Below the pieces are notes generated by a model. That model was not told the DNA's origin and searched no databases. It was given only the letters and a program-made list of their open reading frames with translations. From assembly GCA_027604685.1 (NCBI GenBank), contig JADHYX010000276.1, positions 1 to 29,611 of the forward strand: a DNA stretch of 29,611 nucleotides, read 5' to 3'. Made by a program: the position numbers and the translations under genes. How positions within the stretch are numbered: the stretch's first letter is position 1; each line of letters begins with the position of its first letter. This document shows positions 9,210 to 29,554 of this stretch, one piece after another. Source of the stretch: Lobulomyces angularis. Its lineage: Eukaryota; Chytridiomycota; Chytridiomycetes; Lobulomycetales; Lobulomycetaceae.

Positions 9210-10215
9210 TACAATTATATATAAAATAATGTATTATGTGTTTCGTATTGAAATGAGGAAGAGTGGTGAGAAAAATTTTTTTAAAAAACAAGGACAAAAA
9301 AATAAATAAACAACGGAGTTATAGAACAAGAAATGGAGAATAAATTGTTTCTAAAAAAAAATATTAGATGACAAATAAAAAATTTAAAAGAAAAAACTAA
9401 GATCTGAAAACAATTATGATTTATTTTTAAACGTTTTGTATTAATAGATGATTTCAAAGTAGTAAAAAAAGAGGGGAAGACAACACATCATATAATATAT
9501 AATAGTTAAATATGGTGTTTGTAACATGTAATTAATATAAGATAACTGTAAGTAAAGATGATATATAAGAGCCAACATAGTGTGAGATGGATATGTAAAA
9601 ATGTAGGAATTAAAGGAAAGATATAAGAATAATTGTAGGGATGAACGGTGTAAATAGTAATAGTAAGGAATAGACATGGGAACAATGGTAGAATGTATGA
9701 CATTTTAGGATTTTATGCTTAAATGAATATCAATAACTTGTGTGGAGTAAGTGTATTTTTTGAAAAACATTTAACATAATTACAGCATTAAGTAATAGTA
9801 TTTCTTCAGATATTGAATAAGGTATAAAACATCTTATAAAACATCTTATAAACCATTTATTTACACTATGAAATATGCTATAAAATTTACTATAAATTAC
9901 ACTGTAAATTATACTATGAAATAACTTGGATTCAGCTTTTTCAAAAATACTTTATTTCTATTTCGTCCGACGGAGGTTCCAATTTTTTTGAGCCCTGTGT
10001 CTGAGTTGTGGCACAATAGTAAAAACTAAAATGCTTCGTTCCTATTTTTTTTTTTTTTTTTTTTTTATTTTTTTAAGTGGTTAAGCAAAATTTTCATTTT
10101 TTCAATTAAAAAATTCACAAAAAATTCCTATAAAATTCCCTCTAAAAATCAAAAATTTATCCTTATAAATTTTTTTAAAAAAAAAAAAAAAAAGTAAAGT
10201 AAAAAAAAGAAGCTG
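9210..10215. other. Intergenic stretch, no gene seen
   Basis: About 1 kb between the transposon and the C2H2 gene. The open frames here are short, Tyr/Leu-rich and without codon structure. The stretch holds an AT-rich degenerate repeat block (9823-9925), a GC-richer patch near 9967-10040 and poly-T/poly-A runs just before the C2H2 start. It probably contains the C2H2 promoter and 5' leader. Confidence 0.5.
9823..9925. repeat. Degenerate ~12 bp tandem repeat
   Basis: Two perfect copies of TATAAAACATCT (9823-9834, 9835-9846) are followed by looser copies built on ACTATAAAWTT/ACTRTGAAAT up to about 9925. The pattern looks like a decaying minisatellite; no function is evident. Confidence 0.5.
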
Positions 10216-11216
10216 ATGCAACATATGCAATCCTCCTTCAGCTTCCAACATCATCTTACCAATAATAAATCTTCTGAAAATCTTAATCTTACCAACAACA
10301 ATAAATCTTCTGAAGTTCTTAATCAAACTAACCTTATCGACAATCTTCTAAGTACAAACGATATTCAAAATTCTTCTGGATCAAACTTGGATATTAATTC
10401 AAATAATTTAAATATGCAATCAAATAACTTTTTAAACAACAACTTTAATCTCCAAGCTGACGGTACTTTAAATTTCAATTCTGATTTAAACTTCAATACA
10501 GAATCTTCTGCCAACTACTTTCCTACCCCTGCCTTATCTACAACTGACTCATTCTTGGATCTCCAATCCCCTTTGATCTTAAATCACTTCAACACTCCCA
10601 TCTTTTCCTCCCTAAACTCCCCATTTTCTGCTTCCACCTCAGACTTCCAATCTCCCTTTCCTAACTCTACTGACTCCTTCAATCAAATCAATCTTTCTAA
10701 TTCGCCAATCGACCAACAAGTAAACTACTTTGAACCTTTGGAACCTACTTCCCCTTCCATCAATCCTGCTGACACTGTTACTCTCACCTTTGCCCAACTC
10801 TCAGCTTTAATTTCCGCTTCTGCAAATCCTTCTACCACCAGCTCCACTACCAATTCTCAAAAGAAACCTTCAAAATCCCTCAAAGAATTTCCTTGTCCTC
10901 ACCCTGGTTGTGGAAAAATTTTTACTAGAAAGTTTAATCTAAAGACTCACTCCTTTACTCATGATGCTAATAGACCTAGAGACTTTGTTTGTCAACATCA
11001 TGGATGTGGAAAATCCTTTGTTAGGTATTAATAACTAAAATTTTAACATCTTCTTATTTATTTTTCTCTGATAGAATCCATGATTTACAAAGACATAGTT
11101 CTATTCACTCTAGAAATAATGGAAATAAATGCAACACTTGTCAAAAACATTTTGCAAGATCTGATGCTCTTTCCAGACATATCAAAAGTGGAATTTGTTT
11201 TGAAATAAATCCTTGA
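10216..11216 (+). CDS. C2H2 zinc-finger transcription factor, Swi5/Ace2-like finger cluster
   Basis: Two exons (10216-11024, 11075-11216; intron GTATTA...GATAG, phase 2) encode 316 residues. The first ~220 are Asn/Ser/Gln-rich and disordered, with many Ser-Pro/Thr-Ser patches, typical of fungal activators. Three C2H2 fingers close the protein: CPHPGCGKIFTRKFNLKTH, then CQHHGCGKSFVR/IHDLQRH split by the intron, then CNTCQKHFARSDALSRH ending KSGIC. Two C-x4-C fingers followed by a C-x2-C finger with DALxRH and a terminal Cys match the Swi5/Ace2 arrangement, which controls late-mitotic and daughter-cell genes in yeast. Related fungal factors share parts of the pattern, so the orthology is tentative. 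The start is the first ATG in the open frame. The 3' end converges with the SCFD2-like gene 95 bp away. Confidence 0.85.
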
Positions 11217-16690: not shown

Positions 16691-16925
16691 GTTTTTTACG
16701 CCATCTTTATAGCTCGTGAAACTTGCTTCGTTGTCAAAAATTTCAAAATTTTTCAATAAAAAAAAAAAGATTTTTTTAAAAAAAAAAAAAAAAAAAATTA
16801 AAAATTATTATTGTTTAATAACATATATAAATATTTCCTTTGTTTTATTTTATTATATTTTTTTTGTTCTTCAATTACAATTTCAATTCATTTCAACAAA
16901 TTACATTCAACACATAAAATATTTC

Positions 16926-17936
16926 ATGCTTGATACTCTTCCTCCTTCGCCTTCCTCTTCTATGGATTCTCCTCGACTTCAAAATACTGACTTTAATTGG
17001 TTAAAAAATAGTATACAGAATACATCTGAAGTTAAAGTCAAGCAGCGTAGAGGAAAAAGTAATTATCATTAAAACTTTTTTCTTTTTAATTTTTTTTTTT
17101 TGGTTTAGATTTATCTCCTGAGGAAAGAGAAGCTAAAAGAATTGAGCGAATAATGAGAAATCGACATTCTGCCGTCGCCTCCAGAGAGAGAAAGAGAAAA
17201 CGCCTGGAAGAATTAGAAGTCAGTCATAGCTCCTTACTAGAAGATAGTGAACAACTTCGAAAGCGTTTGAAAACTTACGAAACTGAAAATGCAAACTTGA
17301 CCACTAAGTTGGAAACGCTTACTACCCAATTTGAAACGTTAAAAAATCTATTTACCTTAGCTACAACAACAAATAATAATTCTCAGACACCTTCTTTAGA
17401 GTCGATACTTTCGACGACCACCATGCTGCTAAATGCATCTACATCCCCTGTTACCCCATCATTGTTGAAACCTGATAGTCAGTTAGATACATTTGATACA
17501 ACTCAGCAAAAGATTTTTCATTTTGATAACCAACAGAATTTCAGTGTTGTTGGCAACCCTTCAGCGGTTCTGCAGCCGATAACATTGACTTGTTTAATCA
17601 AGCACCAAGCCAACCAACTCAACTTCCTTTTTATCTCCTTGATAGCAACGTCGTTGAGAATGGTACTTGGGGAACTTCCGGACTTCATGATGAAAAATTG
17701 TATGTTGACTTGTTTGATGATCTCTTTAACTTCCAATTCGAAGAAAATGACAATGGAAAAATGTGTAGTGGAGTGGAAGGTATTAAAAAAATCTTTTTTT
17801 TAGTAATATTTTTTTTTTTTTTGTAGATACTAATAAAACGGTACCTAGAATACAAAAAGAATTACTATTTAAAGAAGAAAGCTCTCTGGCCAACCCTTTT
17901 GAAGACATCTTTGCCAGCTGTTTCTCAAAGATATGA
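16926..17936 (+). CDS. HAC1: Hac1/XBP1-type bZIP transcription factor, candidate for non-conventional splicing
   Basis: Hac1/XBP1 proteins activate the unfolded-protein response after Ire1 cuts a short intron from their mRNA and changes the frame downstream of the bZIP. Exon 1 is 16926-17058 and exon 2 begins at 17109. The basic region RIERIMRNRHSAVASRERKR carries Asn62-x7-Arg70 and matches the Hac1 class (RIERxLRNRxAAxxSRExKR), followed by a zipper with Leu/Tyr at 80, 87, 94, 101, 108. The bZIP frame then runs on in exon 2 with a hydrophobic/basic tail (LNFLFISLIATSL), and through a GT-AG intron at 17780-17826 stays open to a stop at 18028-18030 (335 residues). A second frame, open from 17530, encodes an acidic tail (LYVDLFDDLFNFQFEEND, later NPFEDIFASCF) ending at 17934-17936; reaching it needs removal of 2 mod 3 nt. 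The acidic frame looks like the activation domain (about 300 residues when joined). The ATG at 16926 is the first in frame. Confidence 0.8.
17562..17578 (+). other. Cluster of Ire1-type cleavage motifs (CNG/CNG) in the frame-switch zone
   Basis: The 17 bases CAGCGGTTCTGCAGCCG contain three overlapping C-N-G/C-N-G motifs: CAG/CGG (cut after 17564), CTG/CAG (after 17572; its loop CTGCAGC equals the XBP1 3' site) and CAG/CCG (after 17575). Removing 17565-17572 (8 nt) or 17565-17575 (11 nt) moves the bZIP frame exactly into the acidic frame. Both would be shorter than known HAC1/XBP1 introns (20 nt in Aspergillus, 26 in XBP1, 252 in yeast), and I could build only one weak 4-bp stem with a 7-nt loop (AACC/GGTT, 17555-17569), so the actual pair of sites is uncertain. 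Confidence 0.4.
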
Positions 17937-18224
17937 AGCTTTTTTCAATCAAAATAGATATAAAGAATTAAATTTGTTTTTTACTTTCGTTCAGATTCAA
18001 GTTCAACAAAAAATTAAAAATATGCAATAAAAAAAATATATATTTGTAGTAACTAAACATAAATTTTTTTTTTTTTTTTTTTTTTAATTGTATATAAATA
18101 TATTTTTATTATTATTATTTTTTTTTTTAATTATCAATCAACTGAAAAACAAAAAAATTAAAACTAAAAAAAAGAAAAAAAAAAAAAAAATATTATAAAA
18201 CAAAATGAAAAAAAAAGAGAAAAT

Positions 18225-19136
18225 ATGAAAAAAAAAAAATGTCTACTAGTAGGAAGAGGAAGTAAACCCGAGAGTGAAAAAGAAGAATTAAAAAATAGTG
18301 AATGGTATTTATGTGATAAATCCCAATATGCATTTTCTTTAGAGGAGGAGGAATTGAAATTGGAGGAGGAAAAAAAAATAAAATTAGTGATGGATTTTAA
18401 TAACGTGAAAGAGTTAAGTAAGGTAGAAAGTAAAAGTTTCGAAGCAATAGTGATAGATTGGTCGACCTGGCGATATCTACGACCTTTGGATGAAGGTGTG
18501 GTTAAAGAGTGGCAAAGAATGTTGAATGAGGATTCTGAATTTGAAATGAAAGGGTTGATCTTTGAATCTTCGCTGTCGAGTTTGACTTATGTTAAAGAAT
18601 ACAATGAGTCTGTAGGATTATTTAACGATGCCAATTACTCACATGTCAACGTTTCCATTAAAAAATTTAAAAATATATTAAAAAAAGAAAAATTTGACAT
18701 AAAAAAATTTAATAATAATAATAATAATATTCGGTTACCTATCGATCCTTTAAATAGATTAAAGATTTTAGATTCAAATTTATCATTTGATATAAAAAAA
18801 AAAAAAAAAAAAATTTTAAAAAAAAATTTTTTTTTAATAGATGATGATAATTATGATGTTGATGATAAATACGAGGATGATGTTGATAAATACGAGGATG
18901 ATGATTTTTTTCTTCCCGTTTTAAATTTAAAAAAAATTTTTTTTAAAAATAACTTTGACAATGAGTTGGACTCGTTTATGTATAAAGTTTTGGTAAAGGA
19001 AATTGAAAGTGAATGGAAAAAATTTTTTGTGGACTTGTTAGGTTTTCGGGATATCCTTTTTTGGGTAAAGGAAATAAAAAAATTTCCTGTTCAGACCACC
19101 TACGTCGTTGACAGATGGATTCAGGTTATAAAGTAA
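18225..19136 (+). CDS. Single-exon protein of unknown function
   Basis: 303 residues, no intron, not recognised. The N-terminal half is well structured: CLLVGRG near the start, KLVMDFNNV, then FEAIVIDWSTWRYLRPLDE and MKGLIFESSLSS, a beta-alpha alternation like a Rossmann or methyltransferase-like fold, but no SAM-binding glycine motif is visible. A low-complexity middle follows (Lys runs, poly-Asn, and a DNA-level repeat encoding DDKYEDDVDKYEDDD at about 18850-18905), then a conserved-looking C-terminus (WKKFFVDLLGFRDILFWVKEI, TYVVDRWIQVI). The start is the ATG at 18225; an earlier ATG at 18204 stops after seven codons. Its 3' end converges with the ABC transporter 148 bp away. The structured ends make a real protein likely. 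Confidence 0.65.
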   Translation: MKKKKCLLVGRGSKPESEKEELKNSEWYLCDKSQYAFSLEEEELKLEEEKKIKLVMDFNNVKELSKVESKSFEAIVIDWSTWRYLRPLDEGVVKEWQRMLNEDSEFEMKGLIFESSLSSLTYVKEYNESVGLFNDANYSHVNVSIKKFKNILKKEKFDIKKFNNNNNNIRLPIDPLNRLKILDSNLSFDIKKKKKKILKKNFFLIDDDNYDVDDKYEDDVDKYEDDDFFLPVLNLKKIFFKNNFDNELDSFMYKVLVKEIESEWKKFFVDLLGFRDILFWVKEIKKFPVQTTYVVDRWIQVIK

Positions 19137-19284: not shown

Positions 19285-22200
19285 TTAATTTTCAAGGTCA
19301 TTTTTTTGTTTAGCGATTTTTAACAAAGAAATTTTTGCTTCTTCACCCATTTCGTCAACCATTCTTCTAAACCAAGCACCAGGGTCGTTACTATCTTTTA
19401 TTAACATTTGGTAGGGGGTATCGTATTCAACGACTTTTCCAAAATCGAGCACCATGATTTTATCAAAGTCTATTACAGTATTAAGTCTGTGAGCTATAGT
19501 CAAGACGGTGGAGTTTGCGAATAGTCCACTTTTTGAACGGATAGCGTTTTGGATTAGTTGATCTGTATTCAAGTCAACGTTAGAAGTAGCTTCGTCCATG
19601 ACAATAAGTCTAGTGTTTCTTAGAATAGCTCTGGCTAGACAAATTAGCTGCCTCTCACCAACTGACCAGTTACTTCCTCCCTCTGAAACTGGACTTTCCA
19701 TTTTTTGTGGTAAACCTTCGATAAGTTTTTTTAGTTCTACTGCTTCCAGCGCTGTCCATAGCTCGTCGTCAGTATATTTTCCAAAAGGGTCGATGTTAAA
19801 TCTTAGTGTTCCTTTAAAACAAAAAGGTTCCTGTGGTATAATGGAGATTCTGGATCTCAAATCTTTCAGTCCAATTTTTGAAGTGTTTATTCCATCAATG
19901 ATGAAATTTCCCTCACTCGGCTCGACTAGTCTAAATAGTGCCTGCAATAAACTACTCTTTCCCGCCCCAGTTCTACCCACTACTCCTATTTTTTTCCCTG
20001 CCTCAAAATGAATTGAAATATTGTTTAGAACTTTGTGGGTTGTTCCAGGATAAATCAAACTAAGGGAGTCTACTTTGACGTCACCCTTATCTGGCCAATT
20101 GGAGGGCAAGACCACATCCTTTGTCTCTTCGTCAGCTTCAGGTGTTAGCTTGGTATACTCCAACATCCTTTCAACACAAACCATTTGGTTTTCGACTTCG
20201 GCGGACTGACGAGTTCCCCATTGGAGAGAACCCAACATCTGTAAAGCATAGGTTAAAACTAACCCAACGGAGGAGGCACCGAGTTTTGAGTTTTCTTTCA
20301 AAAAAACTGACAACAAGACAATCATCAAAAAAAAGACACCGCTCAACCAATCTAATCTCAATCCTAGCCAGCGAGAACAAGAAATGAAAGCAAAGTAAAA
20401 TCTTGTGTTTTTATTTTGGAGGTTGTTAAATACTGTAATGGATCTTTCCTGTGCACCAAATGCCCTCAAGGTTGTTAGTCCCTCCATCGTCGTTGGAATG
20501 TTGGCGTAGATTGGAGACTTGGCTGCTGATTCTATTCTTTTGATTTGTGTTGAACTACTTATGTAATATTTTCTTAAAAAAAAAAATACTCCAATTACAA
20601 ATGGTATTCCTATTATCAAAAATTAAAAAAAAAAAAAAAGGAAAAGATTAAAAAAACACAAAAAAAAAAAAAAAGAAAAAAATTTAACCTATCAATATAG
20701 GAGGAATAAAAACACAAGAGAGAACAAGAGCGGCAAAAATTTGAAAGGAAGCTTGGATAAAATCAAAAAATGTTGGTGGTAATAGTTCATCAACTGTACT
20801 TAGATCTTTAGAAAATCGACTATATTCAAAAAAAAAAGAAAATAAAATAGAATAAATAAATAAAAAATAAAATAAAACTTTACTTCAAGATTCTACCATG
20901 GGGGTTGACTTCAAAAAAGTAAAGTGGAGATCTCATAACACCTTTGGTCATCGATAAAAAGATGCTTCTACTACATTTCAAACAGACCAAAAAAAATCCA
21001 CCAGATCTTAAGAAAGAGAGTAAAAAAGTCAAACAGACTAGTCCGGAATAAATGGATGCATGTTTATTTCCACTAGCTTTTTGTTGTGCTGCACTCTCGT
21101 TTGCCCAATTTGATAGAGACCAATCACCCAAAATGGAACTGACTTGACCACAAATTAAAACGGCAACTAGTAAAAAAAATTGTAGAGGGTGCACACCAGA
21201 CTTGAAAAAGTTTATGTAGGTGTTTATATTGACACTTCCTTGGGCTTCAGTTAATTCCTTTGAAAGTTCTTTATCTTTATCTTTTTTTCCTTCAATTTTT
21301 TCTTCTGGATTTAACTTGTCCTCAATGTCAATCGTTTTATTTGTATTGGTTGCTATCCTGGGGTTTTCTTTTATCAATTCCTCCTCACCTGCTGTTGAAG
21401 AATCTGACTCCTCTACTTCATATTTGTTTCCTTCAGTTAAAAAGTTTCTCATTGCTAAAAAAAAAAAATGAATAAATTATTTTTTTTTTTTTTTTTTTTT
21501 GCCTTGAATAAAATCTCCCCCATCTTCTTGACTTGTATTGACATTAACAGCATCTTCAAATTTACCAATACTATTTATTTTTCCATTGATTAGAACTAAA
21601 ACTTCTTCACAAAATTTAATGTATTGTAACTAAAAAATAGAAATTAATAAAAACAAAAAAAAGGAAAAAAAAAAATTTTAACCTGATGTGTAATCAAAAC
21701 AACTGAGGCAGGATTTTTTCTATAATTTCCATAGGTGTTTGAAGAAAGCAAGAGATTTTTTAAACAATTTTCAAACAAGTTTCTTCCAACTTTTGCATCA
21801 ACTGCTGATAATGGATCATCCAAAACTATATATATATTATTAATTTTTTTATTTTATTTTATTTTTATTTTTTTAACCATATAAATCTGCATTATAATAA
21901 ACAGCTCTTGCTAAAGCTAATCTAGCTTTTTGACCACCACTTAACATTACTAAAAACATCATAAAAAAATAATAAAAAAATAAAATAATTTAAAATATTT
22001 ACCACCACGTTCACCGATCAAGGTTTCAACTCCTTCAGGAAAGGATTCAATATCTCTTTCAAGTTCACAAGCAGATATAACAACTTTAAACCAATCTTCG
22101 TTGTACGTCTCAGAAAATAAAATGTTGTCTTTAATAGTTCCTGATATGATCCTATTATGGTGGTGAGAGAAAAAAAAAAAACAAAAATTTTTTTTTAATT

Positions 22201-24301
22201 ATAAATATATAATTTTTTTTTTTTAATTTTTGTATTATTTATTACCATGGAATTTGAGAACAATAAGCGATTTTTAATTTCTTTGTTTCTCCATTTGGAT
22301 CCTTCACTGTTTTTCTTAAACCATACATTCCTCCAGTACAATCCATTTCACCCAAGAGTGCACTTGCAAAGGAAGATTTTCCACTTCCTTTTTTTTTTTG
22401 AAATATTGTTAATATTATTTAATTTTTTTTTTTTTGTATTCTTTTTTTTTTAAAAATATTTAAGTTTGTAGTCTATCTTTTTTAAAAATTTTCTCTTTTT
22501 ACCAACAGGACCACAAACACCCAAAAGTTTTCCTTTGTTTATGGTTAAATCTATATCACTCAAGATATTTTGACCAATATCCTCATTGGGAGCAATGGAT
22601 GAGGTCCATTTAAAGGATGCATTTTTCATGAGACAAATAATTTCTTCGGTGTCAACTCCTTTTTCCCTTAAAAAAGTCAAATCCATTTTTTCCAAAGCAA
22701 TTGCATTTAATTCAATTTCTTCCAATAATAAAAATTCAGTAATTCTTTCTAGAGAAATAAGAGCTTCGCTGCCAAATTGAACTGCACCAGCGAAACCTTT
22801 AGAGAGACTCATTTTTAAATTTGAAATGACATTAATGGAACTGAATACTGCAGATGGAGTTAATATTCCACCCAATAAATAAAAGGTGATGAAAGGAAAT
22901 AGTGGAATTAAAGTCGTTGAGGAAAAATAAAATGCCTCGTTACAACTTTTTACTAGAGAACTTTTTTTTATCTGATGTAGTTCACTCTTTCTTTCTTTTT
23001 CTACTTGTTTAGTAAATGGTTTCTTTTTTTTTTAAATATAAAAAATATATTAATAAATAATTTTTTTTTTTTTTTAAATAAAAAATCATTAAAATATATT
23101 TAATTTATTTCTTACCTCCCAAGAATAAAGTTTTACAACTAAAATACCAGCCAACATATCACTGATAGTTCTTACTCTTTCGTCTCTAAATCTGACAGTA
23201 ATTCTTCTAAATCTTCCAAATAGCCTGCCAAAACTAGCTTGGATCAACATGTACAAAAATAAGGCTACTAAAACCATTAGTGAGGATTCAGCAATTTGAG
23301 TAGAAATGAAAATGGTCGAAACAACAATTTCAACAGGTACAGAAAAAATACTAGGAAGAAATGGTCCAAGATCCTTAAAAAAAATATTAATTTTTTTTTT
23401 TATTTTTTTTTTTTATTTTTCACCTCAAATCTCTGAACATCATTACTAATTATATTTACAATTTTTCCAGTAGTACCTGGACCTCCCTCTTTTAATCGTA
23501 ACATTTTTTTATAAATTAAGGCAATAAAGCCAACTCTTAGTTTTACACCTAATCTGGTTGGGTTAAAAAAAATTAATAAAAAAAAAAAAGAAGGGAGGGG
23601 AACCTAAATCCAACAAATACAGCATTATGGTTGGTAAAAGCGATCATTAAAACTAAAAAAAACATTATAATTCCTATTGGTAACGTATCCTTGTAAGTTG
23701 CATTTTTATCTGCAAAGGATTTTAAAAAAAAAGAAAATGTGATTGCATTTGATAATCGAAATGTAACAGATAAAAATTGAATTCCGACTTGTCTAAGTAA
23801 CTCAAATTTATAAACTGAAGCTATAGCTAAAAAAAAAAAAAAATTAAAAAAAAAAATATTTAAAAATAAAAACTATAAATATTACCTTTCCATAATTTTG
23901 CATCTTTTTTTCCTTTAATTTTTAATTCATAATCCCAAGCATCTTTTAATTTATCACAAAGTAAACTTGCATCATCTTCATCCTTTTTTATTAAAATAAT
24001 TTTTTAGAAAAAAAATTAAAAATAAAAAAAATACATCAATATTAGCAAAGTTTTCTTCGGTTAATTCATTGTTTTTACCCCATTTTAATAAACCATTCAT
24101 ATAACTTTTTTTAATTTTTTGTTTTTTTTTTTGGAATTAATAAAAAGAATAATAACAATTATGATAAGATATATATATGTAAGATGTAAAAATTTTTTTT
24201 TTTTTTTTTTACTTGAAAGTAGAAATAGATAAAAATCCAGAGTCCTGAACTCTATTTGAAGAGGTAAATTTTTGTGGTTTTTTTGATTTTTTTTGAACCA
24301 T
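19285..24301 (-). CDS. ABCC-family (MRP-type) full ABC transporter, 15 exons
   Basis: A membrane ATP-driven exporter of about 1,350 residues without TMD0, similar in size to ABCC4. Order from 24301: short basic N-terminus, first membrane domain (24301 to about 22870), NBD1, linker, second membrane domain, NBD2, stop at 19285-19287. NBD1: Walker A GPVG/GSGKSS split by an intron (22388-22502), [21 protein letters not shown], Walker [12 protein letters not shown] with Asp in place of the catalytic Glu, as usual in ABCC NBD1, and THQ instead of the H-loop His-Arg. NBD2: [54 protein letters not shown], all intact. So NBD2 is the hydrolysing site. Fourteen introns of about 45-110 nt are in phase; one (21455-21502) has a GC donor. 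The linker (residues 680-750) is rich in Glu/Lys/Ser. Substrate cannot be read from sequence. The start ATG is the first in the open exon. Confidence 0.92.
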
Positions 24302-24762: not shown

Positions 24763-25696
24763 TTATCATCTGAGCAGTGGTGCTTTGAATCCTACCTTGT
24801 TGAGGCTTGTGTGAGGTGGCACTTTTGAAATTCGGATTATTTCAATTTTCTACACATTTTCAAACTTTTTTAAAAAAAGTTCATAATTCTTCCTCAAACT
24901 CCGCTGAAAACCTGCTCTGTCCTCCGCACTGCGGCGAATTTACCCACAAAAAATACTGGAAATTGTGATGCCAAAAACAGCGAAAAACCTATCGCTAAAT
25001 TCTCTCCCAATTCTCAAATCTCTGCAAAAATCACTCTTATCTTCTTCAACCATCCATTCTGTATGCATCAAAATCATCTGTTTTTATCACTTTAAATCAT
25101 CTTTTTTATTTCTGTTAAAAAACTTTTAATCTCATTTAACTAATCTTTTGTAACTCTTTTTTAAAACTTTAAAATTCACTTTCATCTTTATTAATTTATT
25201 CATATCAACTGTTATTTACTTTAAAAAAAAAATAAATTTTATAAATAAATGATTTTTAAAAAAAAAAAAAAAAAAAATTTCTTTTTATTCATTCTTTTAA
25301 TTTTTTTTTTTTTTAACAAAATAAAAAACATATCCTTTCTTTCATATTTTTTTACATTTCAAATCCTACTTTCACATTTTCTTTAATTTTACAAGTAAAA
25401 TGAAGTAACTTTAAAAAAAAAAAAAAAGGATTTAAAATACCTTGACAATGTCATTTTTTCAATTTTTTTATATACTTTCAAAAAAATTATTTTATTTTTT
25501 TAAGTTAAAGAAAGATATTTTACCAGAGTTGTCAATAAAAATTTGTTAACACAAACGTTTTATCTCTGGGGGCATTTTGTGGTTCCAAACTTTTTTTTTT
25601 AAAAAAAAAAAAAAAAAAAAAAATTCAATTTTTTTCTTTTCACATTTTTTTTTATTTATTTATATAAAAAAAAGCAAATAAAATAAACAAAAAAAA

Positions 25697-28600
25697 ATGC
25701 CTAGTTCAAACACTAATGATGAAGAATTATTTAATGAAGTCTCACAAATAATTGCAGTTTTAACTGCTAAAACTAGTAAAGTTGCTGATATGAATGCTGC
25801 TGCAAAAAACTTGGCTACCTTTGTTCAAAAAAATACCATTTTTACTCTTGATACTCTTCAGATTATTGATAATTTATTAGCCGCCAGTTCCTTTAACGGT
25901 TCTCCTCAAGCAAGACAAGGTGCTTTTTTGGGTTTTGCTTCTTTAGCAAATCATCTCGGAAAACCTGTTGAACCTTATTTAATTCCTCTTTTACCCTCTA
26001 TATTAGATCGTCTCGCTGACAAAGTTGTTGGCGTTCGTCAAGCTGCTACTAACGCTGGAAAAGCAATTATTAAATTAATTAGTCCTCAGTCCTTTCCTAT
26101 ACTCTTACCTATTCTTTTTACTGCAATGAATAGTGAAAAAAAGTGGCAGACTCAACAAGGTGCTTGCGTTCTACTTGGCGAATTAGTAGTAAGAATTCAT
26201 TAAAAAAAAATTATTTGTTTTTGTAATAATTTTTTTTTTTTTTTTCTTAGCCTAAATGTTCTGCTCAAATTTATTCAAACTTGACAAAAATTACCCCAGT
26301 TATTTCAAATTGTGTTTGTGAGATTAGAGAAGAAGTTAGTGAAGCAGCATCTAAAACAATGTTAAAATTGTGCACTGTCATTGGGAATCCTGATGTAGAA
26401 AGTATTATACCTGATGTTGTAAGTTGTGTTGCAGACCCTTCAAAAGTTCCAAATGCTATTGAGCATATTGCTGATACCACTTTTGTTAAATCTGTTCGTG
26501 CTCCGTTATTGGCTGTTATGGTAAAAACTAAAAAAAAAAAAATTATGTATTAAAAATTAAATCTTACAAAAAAATATAAAAAAGATGCCTTTATTGGGAA
26601 GAGGTTTAGCTGAAAACTCAAATTTAGTCAAACGTAGATGTGCAGTAATTATTGATAATATGTGCAGATTGGTACCTGAAGCTTCCGAAATTTTAATGTT
26701 TTTACCTGAAGTGTTACCTGGTTTAAATAGAATTGTTGATATTGGTGGTGATCCAGATTTGGTAGCTGGTAAAGAAAAAAAATTCTTTTTCTTTTTTCAA
26801 TTATTTTTTAAATTGTTTTTTTTTAAGTAACTGCAAGAGCAATTATAACTTTGCATCGTGTAAGTGGGATGGATATTCCTTCATACTTAGTAGAGGCAGC
26901 TGATTATGATGCAAGTAAACCAAAAATTGCTTCCCTTAAATCAGTAACAACTAAGAGAGATATTGAAAAGTTAGAAAGAGATACAACAAAATTAAATTTA
27001 ATAAAACAACGTAAGGAAACTCGAGCAAAAGAGTTGGATCAGTTAGTCGCTGATATTCCTGATGAAAACGAAAAGGATAAAAATTCTATAGAAATAAAAA
27101 AAAATGATATTTTTAAAATATTTGTTGATGAAATTAAGAACCAAACCGTCGAAAACCCTGTAGACTTGGAATATCCCTTTATTATACAGGCAATTCAATA
27201 CGTTAGCTCCATTGCAGAGATTTTAATAAAAGAAGGTGAATATGACTTTGACCTCTGGGAAGAAGAATACATATCTCCATATTTAGTGGAAGTAATTGGT
27301 GGGGAGGTTATTACTCGAAGTGTTGTGTCAAAAGTTTTAGACAAATTAATTGAGCTGAGTGGAAATGGTAATAAAGACGCTGAAAGTGACTTGGACGAAG
27401 ATCTCATAACAAACTGTGAATTCAGTTTGGGTTATGGGGCAATGGTTTTGTTGAGAAAAGCAAAACTTAGATTAAAAAGAGGAGCTATATATGGAATATG
27501 TGGTGGTAAGTTATACACAAATATATATATATTTTTGTGGTCAAATAATACTAAAATTTTTTTTTATTTGTTTACTTGCAGCAAATGGATGTGGTAAGTC
27601 AACTTTACTAAAAGCAATTGCCAAAGGTCAAGTTGATGGATTTCCTCCACAAGATAAAGTTCGTACATATATGGTAGCGGACGAACTAATGGGAAGTGAC
27701 AGTGATGTGTCACTTATTGACTTACTTGCCAACGATGAAAGATTTCAAGAATATTCAAGACAACACATTATTAACGTTTTTAATGAACTAAATTTTTCTT
27801 CAGAGTTACAAAACAGTTCAGTTGGAAGTCTAAGTGGTGGTTGGAAAATGAAACTTGCTCTTGCCAGAGCCATTTTGATAAAAGCCGATATACTTTTATT
27901 AGATGAACCGTAAGAAGTTTTTTTTTTTTTCGTTGAATACATTTAAAAAAATTTTTTTTATTATTTTTTTTTTTTTTTTTGTTAGTACAAATCATTTAGA
28001 TACCGAAAATGTTAAATGGCTACAAGATTATTTATGTTCATTAACTAATGTCACCAGTATGATAATTTCTCACGATACAAAATTTTTAGATGCCGTATGT
28101 AATAACATAATTCATTATGAAGGAAAAAGGTTAAAGACGTACAAAGGAAATTTGAGTGATTTTGTTAAGGTTTTATTTTTATTTTTATAAAGAAGAAAAA
28201 AATAAAGGAATGTACATTTATATATAAAATTTTTTTTTTTTAGGTTAAACCAGAAGCAAAAGCTTATTATACATTAAAGGATGCAGCGTTTAAGTTTGTA
28301 TTTCCGAAACCAGGATTATTAGACGGAATTAATAGTAAAGTCAAGCCAGTTTTACGTTTAAAAAATGTTTATTTTACGTACCCAAAGGCAACAAAGCCAA
28401 GTTTAAAAAATGTTACAGCATCCTGTTCGCTATCATCGAGAGTAGCGATTATTGGAGCAAATGGAGCTGGAAAAAGTACACTTATTAAGGTGCTTACTGG
28501 AGAGACTATGGCTCAGGAAGGGGAAGTTTGGAAGCATCCAACATTGAGAGTAACTTATGTACCGCAACACCCTCTAAAATACCTAAACATGCACTTAGAT

Positions 28601-29554
28601 AAATCACCTAACCAATATATTCAATGGAGATTTGAAAAAGGTGAAGACAAGGAATTGGTGATGAAGCAATCTAGACAACTATCTGATGACGAAAAGGCGC
28701 AAATGGCGAAGGAAATAGAAGGAAAAAATGGACAAAAGAGAAGGATTGAAGCAGTAGTTGGAAGAGCGAAATTAAAAAAGAGTTTTCAATACGAAATCAA
28801 ATGGGTGGGATTAGCGGAAAAGTTTAACAGTTGGATAGCGAGGGATAAATTAGAAGAATGGGGATTTAGTAAGTTGATGCAGAGTTTTGACGACAAGATG
28901 GCAGGAAAGGAAGGGCTGTCTGGATATGGAATGAAAGATTTGACTAGTAACTCAATTCAAACTCATTTTGAAGATTTTGGATTGGAGCCACAATTTTCGA
29001 CTCACGGAAAGATAGGAAATTTGTCAGGAGGACAAAAAATAAAGACAGTGTTGGCTGCATCGATGTGGGGAAATCCACACATGTTAATTCTTGATGAACC
29101 AACGAATTACTTGGACAGAGAGAGTTTAGCAGCTTTTGCAGATGCCATTAAAGATTTTGAAGGAGGAGTAGTAATAATATCGCACAACCACGAGTTTACA
29201 GAGGCACTTTGCAGTGAAAAATGGTACATGGATGCAGGTGTTTTGGATGTGAAAGGAACGAGAGGGGTAGAGGAAGACAAGGACGAGATACCAAATGGGC
29301 TACTATTAAAAAAAGGACTTTTGGGAGGAATCGATATGGAAAGAAACTTTTCAACAGAAAGTAACGCAAGTTCAGTTTCAAGCACTGGAAGTCTCATCCA
29401 TGTTGACGAAGGGGAGGGACCAATAACGGATGGAGTAAAAAAATTAAAAGTCAGTAGTGACAAACCAAAAAAATTAACAAGAAAACAACAAAAAGAAAAA
29501 GAATATCAAGAAAAAAGAGCTGAACTTATTAGATTAGGGATTGTACCTGAATAA
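25697..29554 (+). CDS. NEW1: EF3-family ABCF ATPase, closest to New1/Elf1
   Basis: Cytosolic ribosome-associated ATPase with two ABC domains. EF3 drives E-site tRNA release; New1 (Elf1 in fission yeast) acts in termination/recycling. Seven exons (25697-26188, 26251-26520, 26585-26768, 26828-27505, 27582-27909, 27986-28169, 28244-29554) give 1,148 residues in phase. HEAT repeats fill about residues 1-315. NBD1: GANGCGKST at ~541, LSGGWKMKLALARA, LLLDEP/TNHLD, ISHD. NBD2: GANGAGKST at ~783, LSGGQKIKTVLAAS at ~972, LILDEPTNYLD, ISHN. A chromodomain-like insert (about 879-920, KLKKSFQYEIKWVGLAEKF) sits inside NBD2, the EF3/New1 hallmark. The segment WGFSKLMQSFDD and the ISHNHEFTEALCSEKW and KLTRKQQKEKEY tail read like New1/Elf1 rather than EF3 proper, but the N-terminal prion-like region of yeast New1 is absent. 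The family is certain, the subfamily likely. AATAAA overlaps the stop codon. Confidence 0.93.

Follow-up and report, generated by a model that had tools for sequence, protein, structure and literature searches.

Frame-switching splicing by Ire1 is known from animals, plants, and higher fungi. According to the published rule, its sites lie in stable stem loops whose 7-nt loop reads CNG|CAGN, with the cut separating positions 3 and 4, and the animal representative XBP1 carries a 26-nt intron between two stem loops, with ligation by RtcB (PMC8674358). In Neurospora, the motifs CTG|CTG and CTG|CAG flank a 23-nt intron (PMC4488935), and HAC1 introns are described down to a length of 19 nt (PMC6222058). 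The HXL1 gene of Cryptococcus contains a 56-nt intron and codes for a protein very divergent from Hac1 and Xbp1 (PMC3154848), and the message of bZIP60 of plants undergoes Ire1-dependent splicing at two stem loops (PMC4891664). For anaerobic fungi, Ire1 is reported from four genomes, with HAC1 not named among the query proteins in the excerpt of that paper used here (PMC10512342), and the statements on the other systems likewise refer to excerpts of the papers cited. Among the literature matches listed, which cover titles and the beginnings of abstracts and leave subscription papers and the survey by Hooks and Griffiths-Jones outside the comparison, no chytrid HAC1 was seen.

The gene described here is located on the plus strand of an AT-rich contig of 29.6 kb (the window, i.e., the whole stretch of DNA analysed, to which the positions refer) in an assembly of 20.76 Mb and 533 contigs. 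It is one of two HAC1 paralogues of a lobulomycetalean chytrid, and its message very probably undergoes Ire1-dependent frame-switch splicing within one hairpin. The first coding exon (16926..17058, with the ATG at 16926), whose N-terminus is nearly the same in the NCBI model (P0001), is followed by a predicted spliceosomal GT-AG intron of 50 nt directly before the basic region (17059..17108) and by a bZIP domain (PF00170, 17123..17311). From 17090 onward, the bZIP frame is free of stops through 17779, crosses a second predicted GT-AG intron of 47 nt (17780..17826), and ends with a stop at 18030. The tail of this unspliced form consists of 17562-17779 and 17827..18030, and the predicted product has 335 amino acids. 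A second frame of the same strand is open from 17530; its acidic coding part comprises 17573..17779 and, behind the same intron, 17827..17936 with the stop. The earlier note had described just these two frames across a common intron, and its coordinates (to 18030 for the bZIP frame and 17530-17936 for the acidic one) are correct. A change out of the bZIP frame into the acidic one requires the loss of 2 mod 3 bases, and a product of about 300 amino acids, joining bZIP and acidic tail, would result from the loss of 8, 11, or 14 nt.

A view on the bZIP genes of this genome shows that PF00170 and PF07716 both score above the cut-off for the Hac1-type bZIP, and that the gene and its paralogue occupy ranks 1 and 2 of eight own-genome bZIP loci with each of three fungal Hac1-like queries (3/3), the window gene being the best own-genome match of all three. 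These queries were taken to be Hac1 proteins from their sequences, not from the names of their records. A search of the whole genome with one fungal Hac1-like protein returned the same order, the window gene before the paralogue, and when the bZIP was compared with the PDB, the lowest of the six E values not exceeding 1 was 0.0047. At sequence level, the window gene is supported as a bZIP of the Hac1 class that changes to an acidic tail by a frame switch of the Ire1 type.

Searching the genome at the DNA level with positions 17090-18030 reveals one other locus, on contig C85 (L014), which matches in two pieces with 77% identity to 17552-17747 (155/202, at the switch) and 71% to the bZIP part. 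This paralogue shows a matching exon layout, with introns of 77 and 45 nt at the same places as those of 50 and 47 nt in the window gene, and encodes a bZIP of the same kind; both frames are open after the bZIP, and the switch is found at the same place. The aligned columns are identical in 97 of 223 cases upstream, 48 of 108 in the acidic tails, and 47 of 151 in the unspliced tails. The nearest database proteins are HK099_007874, representing this gene, and HK099_004025, representing the paralogue, recorded for Clydaea vesicula (Chytridiomycota, Lobulomycetales); compared by eye with the present translations, they differ in a few residues outside of errors in the models, so that the assembly probably represents a further isolate of this species or a near relative. 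In these record proteins, too, the acidic tail is reached from the bZIP only via a bridge. Protein searches, one of which was limited in its scoring to the 7995 candidates with the highest number of shared words, yielded as matches the two C. vesicula proteins, one each from Podila epigama and Diplocarpon coronariae, and one unnamed protein, so that no other chytrid sequence is available from them for comparison. A scan of the genome contigs for relatives gave 94 pattern matches with no relative among them, and viral contigs contained no exact match to the DNA pattern.

Over window positions 17478-19136, the NCBI model HK099_007874 (P0001) fuses the Hac1-type gene with the directly downstream open reading frame at 18168-19136 (plus strand), which codes for a Lys/Asn/Asp-rich protein of 322 amino acids whose best family, PF05018, stays below the cut-off. 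Further along, the minus strand encodes an ABC transporter of at least two exons (19285-21476), which has membrane and ATPase domains. The open frame at 22450-23031 may also belong to it. A gene at 25682-29554 (plus strand) shows EF3 HEAT, ABC, and chromo domains and appears to encode translation elongation factor eEF3, for which we take the combination of ABC and chromo domains to be the mark. Upstream, a Ser/Asn-rich open reading frame (10198-11031, plus strand) contains a C2H2 zinc-finger sequence at its end, consisting of one finger below the curated cut-off.

As proposed in the earlier note, the second frame is unlikely to be open by chance. When the protein of the bZIP-frame tail is kept fixed and its codons are resampled, an equally long acidic frame arises in 7 of 20,000 cases (0.00035) for the window gene and in 0 of 20,000 for the paralogue, indicating that the acidic frame truly codes for protein; note that the two genes are related and these tests are not independent. 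The reverse test carries less weight. If the acidic protein is kept constant, codons drawn by usage leave the bZIP frame without a stop in 4.1% of the cases for the window gene, and permuted codons do so in 6.8%; for the paralogue the values are 3.8% or 15%, depending on the null model, and the long openness of the bZIP frame is therefore only mildly surprising.

The switch region contains a predicted RNA hairpin at 17541..17588 (plus strand), which is supported by the two sequences and consists of a 14-bp outer stem formed between the exons and composed of exon sequence only, a bulge of 5 nt, an inner stem of 4 bp, and an apical loop of 7 nt. Its loop side coincides with a conserved block, GGCAACCCTTCAG[C/T]GGTTCTGCAGC[C/T]GA, which starts exactly at the switch. 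In the predicted coding mRNAs (1008 nt for the window gene and 945 nt for the paralogue, UTRs excluded), the hairpin is the strongest fold of any 50-nt segment, with -20.7 and -17.9 kcal/mol, respectively, as against -11.3 and -10.6 kcal/mol for the best fold elsewhere. These energies are attained in 0 of 2000 synonymous resamples of the bZIP frame for each gene, in 5 (window gene) and 24 (paralogue) of 2000 mononucleotide shuffles, and, for a 101-nt segment of the window gene, in 2 of 200 dinucleotide shuffles. A comparison of the paralogues shows 12 of the 18 stem pairs unchanged, 3 altered on one side, 2 with compensatory changes on both sides, and 1 broken, and sliding the partners by 1-3 columns lowers the proportion of paired cells from 97% to 17%-53%. 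A column shuffle for covariation reached the score in 248 of 500 cases, a value that is uninformative with two sequences. An Rfam scan of 16900-18100 returned six matches up to E 10, the best at E 0.68, none of which was relevant or near the gathering score.

Candidate Ire1 sites are located in the two unpaired parts of this hairpin. The apical loop (17559..17565) reads CUUCAGC in the window gene and CUUCAGU in the paralogue and contains the proposed 5' site CUU|CAGY, with the cut after 17561 at the canonical 3|4 position of a 7-nt loop. The proposed 3' site, CUG|CAGC (17570..17576, cut after 17572), is an exact CNG|CAGN match in both genes. The bases at both cuts are predicted to be unpaired with a probability of at least 0.92, and cutting at the two sites would excise the 11 nt CAGCGGUUCUG (17562..17572), joining the bZIP to the acidic tail. 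A scan of the upstream sequence for 5' motifs, with the register fixed by two 3' candidate motifs and at least 4 of 5 defined letters required, identified CUU|CAGY as the only in-register candidate common to both genes. With as many as 3 mismatches allowed, the sequence AACCCTTCAGNGGTTCTGCAG occurs at two sites in the 20.76-Mb assembly, both of them exact and in the two Hac1 paralogues, and the reversed control pattern has no match in the genome. The element deviates from the published rule in two respects: the 5' site has U in place of G before the cut and departs from CNG|CAGN, and the 3' motif lies in the bulge without a 7-nt loop of its own, so that one hairpin is found instead of twin stem loops. 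Second hairpins around CUGCAGC, as sought by eye, compete with the outer stem, and keeping this motif unpaired by force costs about 8 kcal/mol in both genes; they were rejected.

The decisive support for overlapping frames comes from the paralogue with both frames and from the hairpin conserved at the switch, and the other explanations for the locus may be judged against these. An assembly or sequencing frameshift within one continuous frame, which the earlier note had named as an outcome that would overturn its reading, would likewise produce two abutting frames, but the paralogue keeps both of them, with the same switch at the same place, and the C. vesicula proteins need a bridge as well; the paralogue rules out such an error, the chance of which we consider negligible. 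It is improbable, to a somewhat lesser degree, that an ordinary, possibly alternative, spliceosomal intron connects the bZIP and acidic frames, as assumed in the automatic gene models. The GT-AG bridges of both NCBI proteins can indeed be reproduced on this DNA, with 59 nt (17478-17536) in the window gene and 26 nt in the paralogue, but they are situated at different places and are of different kinds in the two genes, and this lack of correspondence is the reason for rejecting them. Moreover, the 26-nt bridge is shorter than the four other predicted introns of both genes (45-77 nt) and would remove half of the conserved hairpin, the 59-nt model extends into the downstream gene, and neither bridge explains the hairpin with its compensatory changes. 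The 59-nt intron crossing the switch in HK099_007874 is probably false, and the automatic models have probably hidden both Hac1 genes behind false introns of this type.

Programmed ribosomal frameshifting by -1, with the hairpin as its stimulator, would take translation out of the bZIP frame into the acidic one and could make use of the stable structure, but no full X XXY YYZ heptamer is found in register in either gene from the last stop of the acidic frame through the hairpin, which led to its rejection, and the Ire1-like motifs would be left without explanation; we regard this route as very improbable, even less likely than a spliceosomal bridge. More weight, though still clearly the smaller share, is given within the Ire1 reading to a cut at other bonds, with an intron of 8 nt (CAG|CGGU and CUG|CAGC), one of 14 nt, or a distant 5' site. 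Removal of 8, 11, or 14 nt would in each case lead to the acidic frame and a new C-terminus, as would use of the distant site, and CAG|CGGU fits the pattern CNG|CNG in the window gene. However, this motif is not retained in the paralogue, which reads CAG|UGGU and so speaks against the 8-nt intron, while the distant in-register candidate CTG|CAAG (161/164 nt) occurs in the paralogue alone, in a scan tied to the two 3' motifs and the threshold of at least 4 of 5 letters. Ire1 splicing with the 11-nt intron is the reading followed below.

The components required for such splicing are recognizable in the same genome. A gene on contig C454 codes for an IRE1 with a kinase domain and an RNase domain, the latter matching PDB chains named IRE1 with E 4e-41. 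The first of these is 4z7g, which we take to be human IRE1. The RNase retains an RNK-KHHY stretch together with the preceding tyrosine, presumably the catalytic residues of IRE1. Open frames upstream of the kinase read like a luminal part and a membrane stretch, and a Pfam search of the exon read as the luminal part gave no match. Contig C529 (L018) carries a ligase gene of the Trl1 type, with domains for RNA ligase and tRNA-ligase kinase. As judged from these predicted genes, the genome encodes an IRE1 with an RNase of the active type as well as an RNA ligase. An RtcB-family gene is located on contig C449 (L016:1429-2335), and the fungus contains two kinds of RNA ligase, one of the RtcB family and one of the Trl1 type with a kinase domain.

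The gene with its frames, the paralogue, the predicted hairpin with its compensatory changes, the motifs, and the genes for IRE1 and ligase are all present in the sequence, and we infer from them a course of events that covers the cutting, the exact sites, the ligation, the dependence on stress, and the activity of both protein forms. Default translation of the HAC1 mRNA would yield the unspliced form, an inactive protein consisting of the bZIP and a hydrophobic/basic tail. Upon ER stress, the membrane kinase-RNase Ire1 would cut the apical loop (CUU|CAGY) and the bulge (CUG|CAGC) of the same hairpin. The 14-bp outer stem would then keep the exons paired, and the 11-nt fragment, held by about 4 bp, would depart before the Trl1-type ligase joins the exons. 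The predicted pairing between the exons (-21.1 kcal/mol in the window gene and -18.5 in the paralogue) is far stronger than that of exon 1 with the 11-nt fragment (-7.2 and -6.2 kcal/mol), suggesting that the exons would remain paired upon release of the fragment and available for sealing by the ligase. A similar "RNA zipper" has reportedly been proposed for XBP1. The loss of 11 nt would bring translation into the acidic frame and generate a bZIP protein with an acidic activation tail as the active form. Of the acidic, activation-domain-like tail postulated before, the acidic coding frame is real, and the activity of the protein form belongs to the proposed part of the scheme.

The suggestion that the unspliced tail may serve as a membrane anchor like that of XBP1u did not gain support. 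Given the acidic frame, the best 19-residue hydrophobic window of this tail has P values of 0.31/0.27 in the window gene and 0.065/0.057 in the paralogue, and its hydrophobic stretch is about what the acidic frame alone gives. The tests for selection on this tail disagree: over 39 codons, identity in the unspliced frame amounts to 19/38 as compared to 12.5 expected (P 0.005), or to 15.9 expected under a laxer null model (P 0.13), and without the initial 5 or 8 codons the P values are 0.002 and 0.007 (0.05 and 0.13 with the laxer null), but the first 40 codons after the switch show a dN/dS of 1.15 in the unspliced frame. The acidic frame reaches 0.63 over the same codons. In this frame, synonymous divergence over the first 40 codons is low, with a pS of 0.34 compared to 0.72 upstream and to 0.67 for the remaining tail, and codons for the same residue are unchanged there in 16 of 20 cases, and upstream in 49 of 94 (uncorrected P 0.026 by Fisher's test). 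Being derived from one sequence pair, these values are at most a hint that selection may act on both frames or on the RNA within the first 40 codons. Taken in full, the proposal of a chytrid HAC1 with an 11-nt single-hairpin Ire1 intron, both cuts in one stem loop, a U before the 5' cut, and first 40 codons maybe selected in both frames appears evenly poised between right and wrong.

In comparison to the known systems, the gene shares with HAC1/hacA of ascomycetes the bZIP with a frame-changing Ire1-type intron after it, the CUG|CAG 3' site, and a Trl1-type ligase, but according to the excerpts cited above the ascomycete introns are about 20 nt or longer (23 nt in Neurospora, 19 nt at minimum) and bounded by two hairpins, whereas the chytrid has about 11 nt, one hairpin, and two paralogues. 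The likeness to XBP1 of animals consists in the CNG|CAGN 3' site, the change of frame to another tail, and a long unspliced tail with a hydrophobic stretch; in contrast to the 26-nt intron, two stem loops, and RtcB given for XBP1 in the source excerpt, the chytrid gene has one hairpin, and the hydrophobicity of its tail is not above expectation. HXL1 of Cryptococcus is likewise a non-ascomycete fungal bZIP gene with an Ire1-dependent intron and CAG at its borders, but differs, as far as its excerpt goes, by the 56-nt intron and by a protein very divergent from Hac1/Xbp1. For bZIP60 of plants, the excerpt shows agreement in the Ire1-dependent splicing of a bZIP mRNA and a difference in lineage and in the two stem loops. 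The view that XBP1 and Hac1 use exactly the arrangement seen here accordingly holds for the Ire1-type frame switch, which is supported on the sequence level, but not for its geometry, with one hairpin and sites about 11 nt apart. We classify the protein as a bZIP of Hac1 type, the switch as one that would work like that of HAC1/XBP1, and the predicted splice element as a variant outside the twin-hairpin rule; compared with known switches of this kind, the element that would be cut seems exceptionally small.

With a chytrid example, the known range of the Ire1 switch would include an early fungal branch. If the proposal is true, Ire1 splicing needs neither twin loops nor a G at both sites, and should a single hairpin with 11 nt be enough, the search rule of twin hairpins is too strict and further introns will have been overlooked. 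The element would also provide a minimal natural substrate for studying the choice of cut sites by Ire1 and the way in which exons are kept together for ligation.
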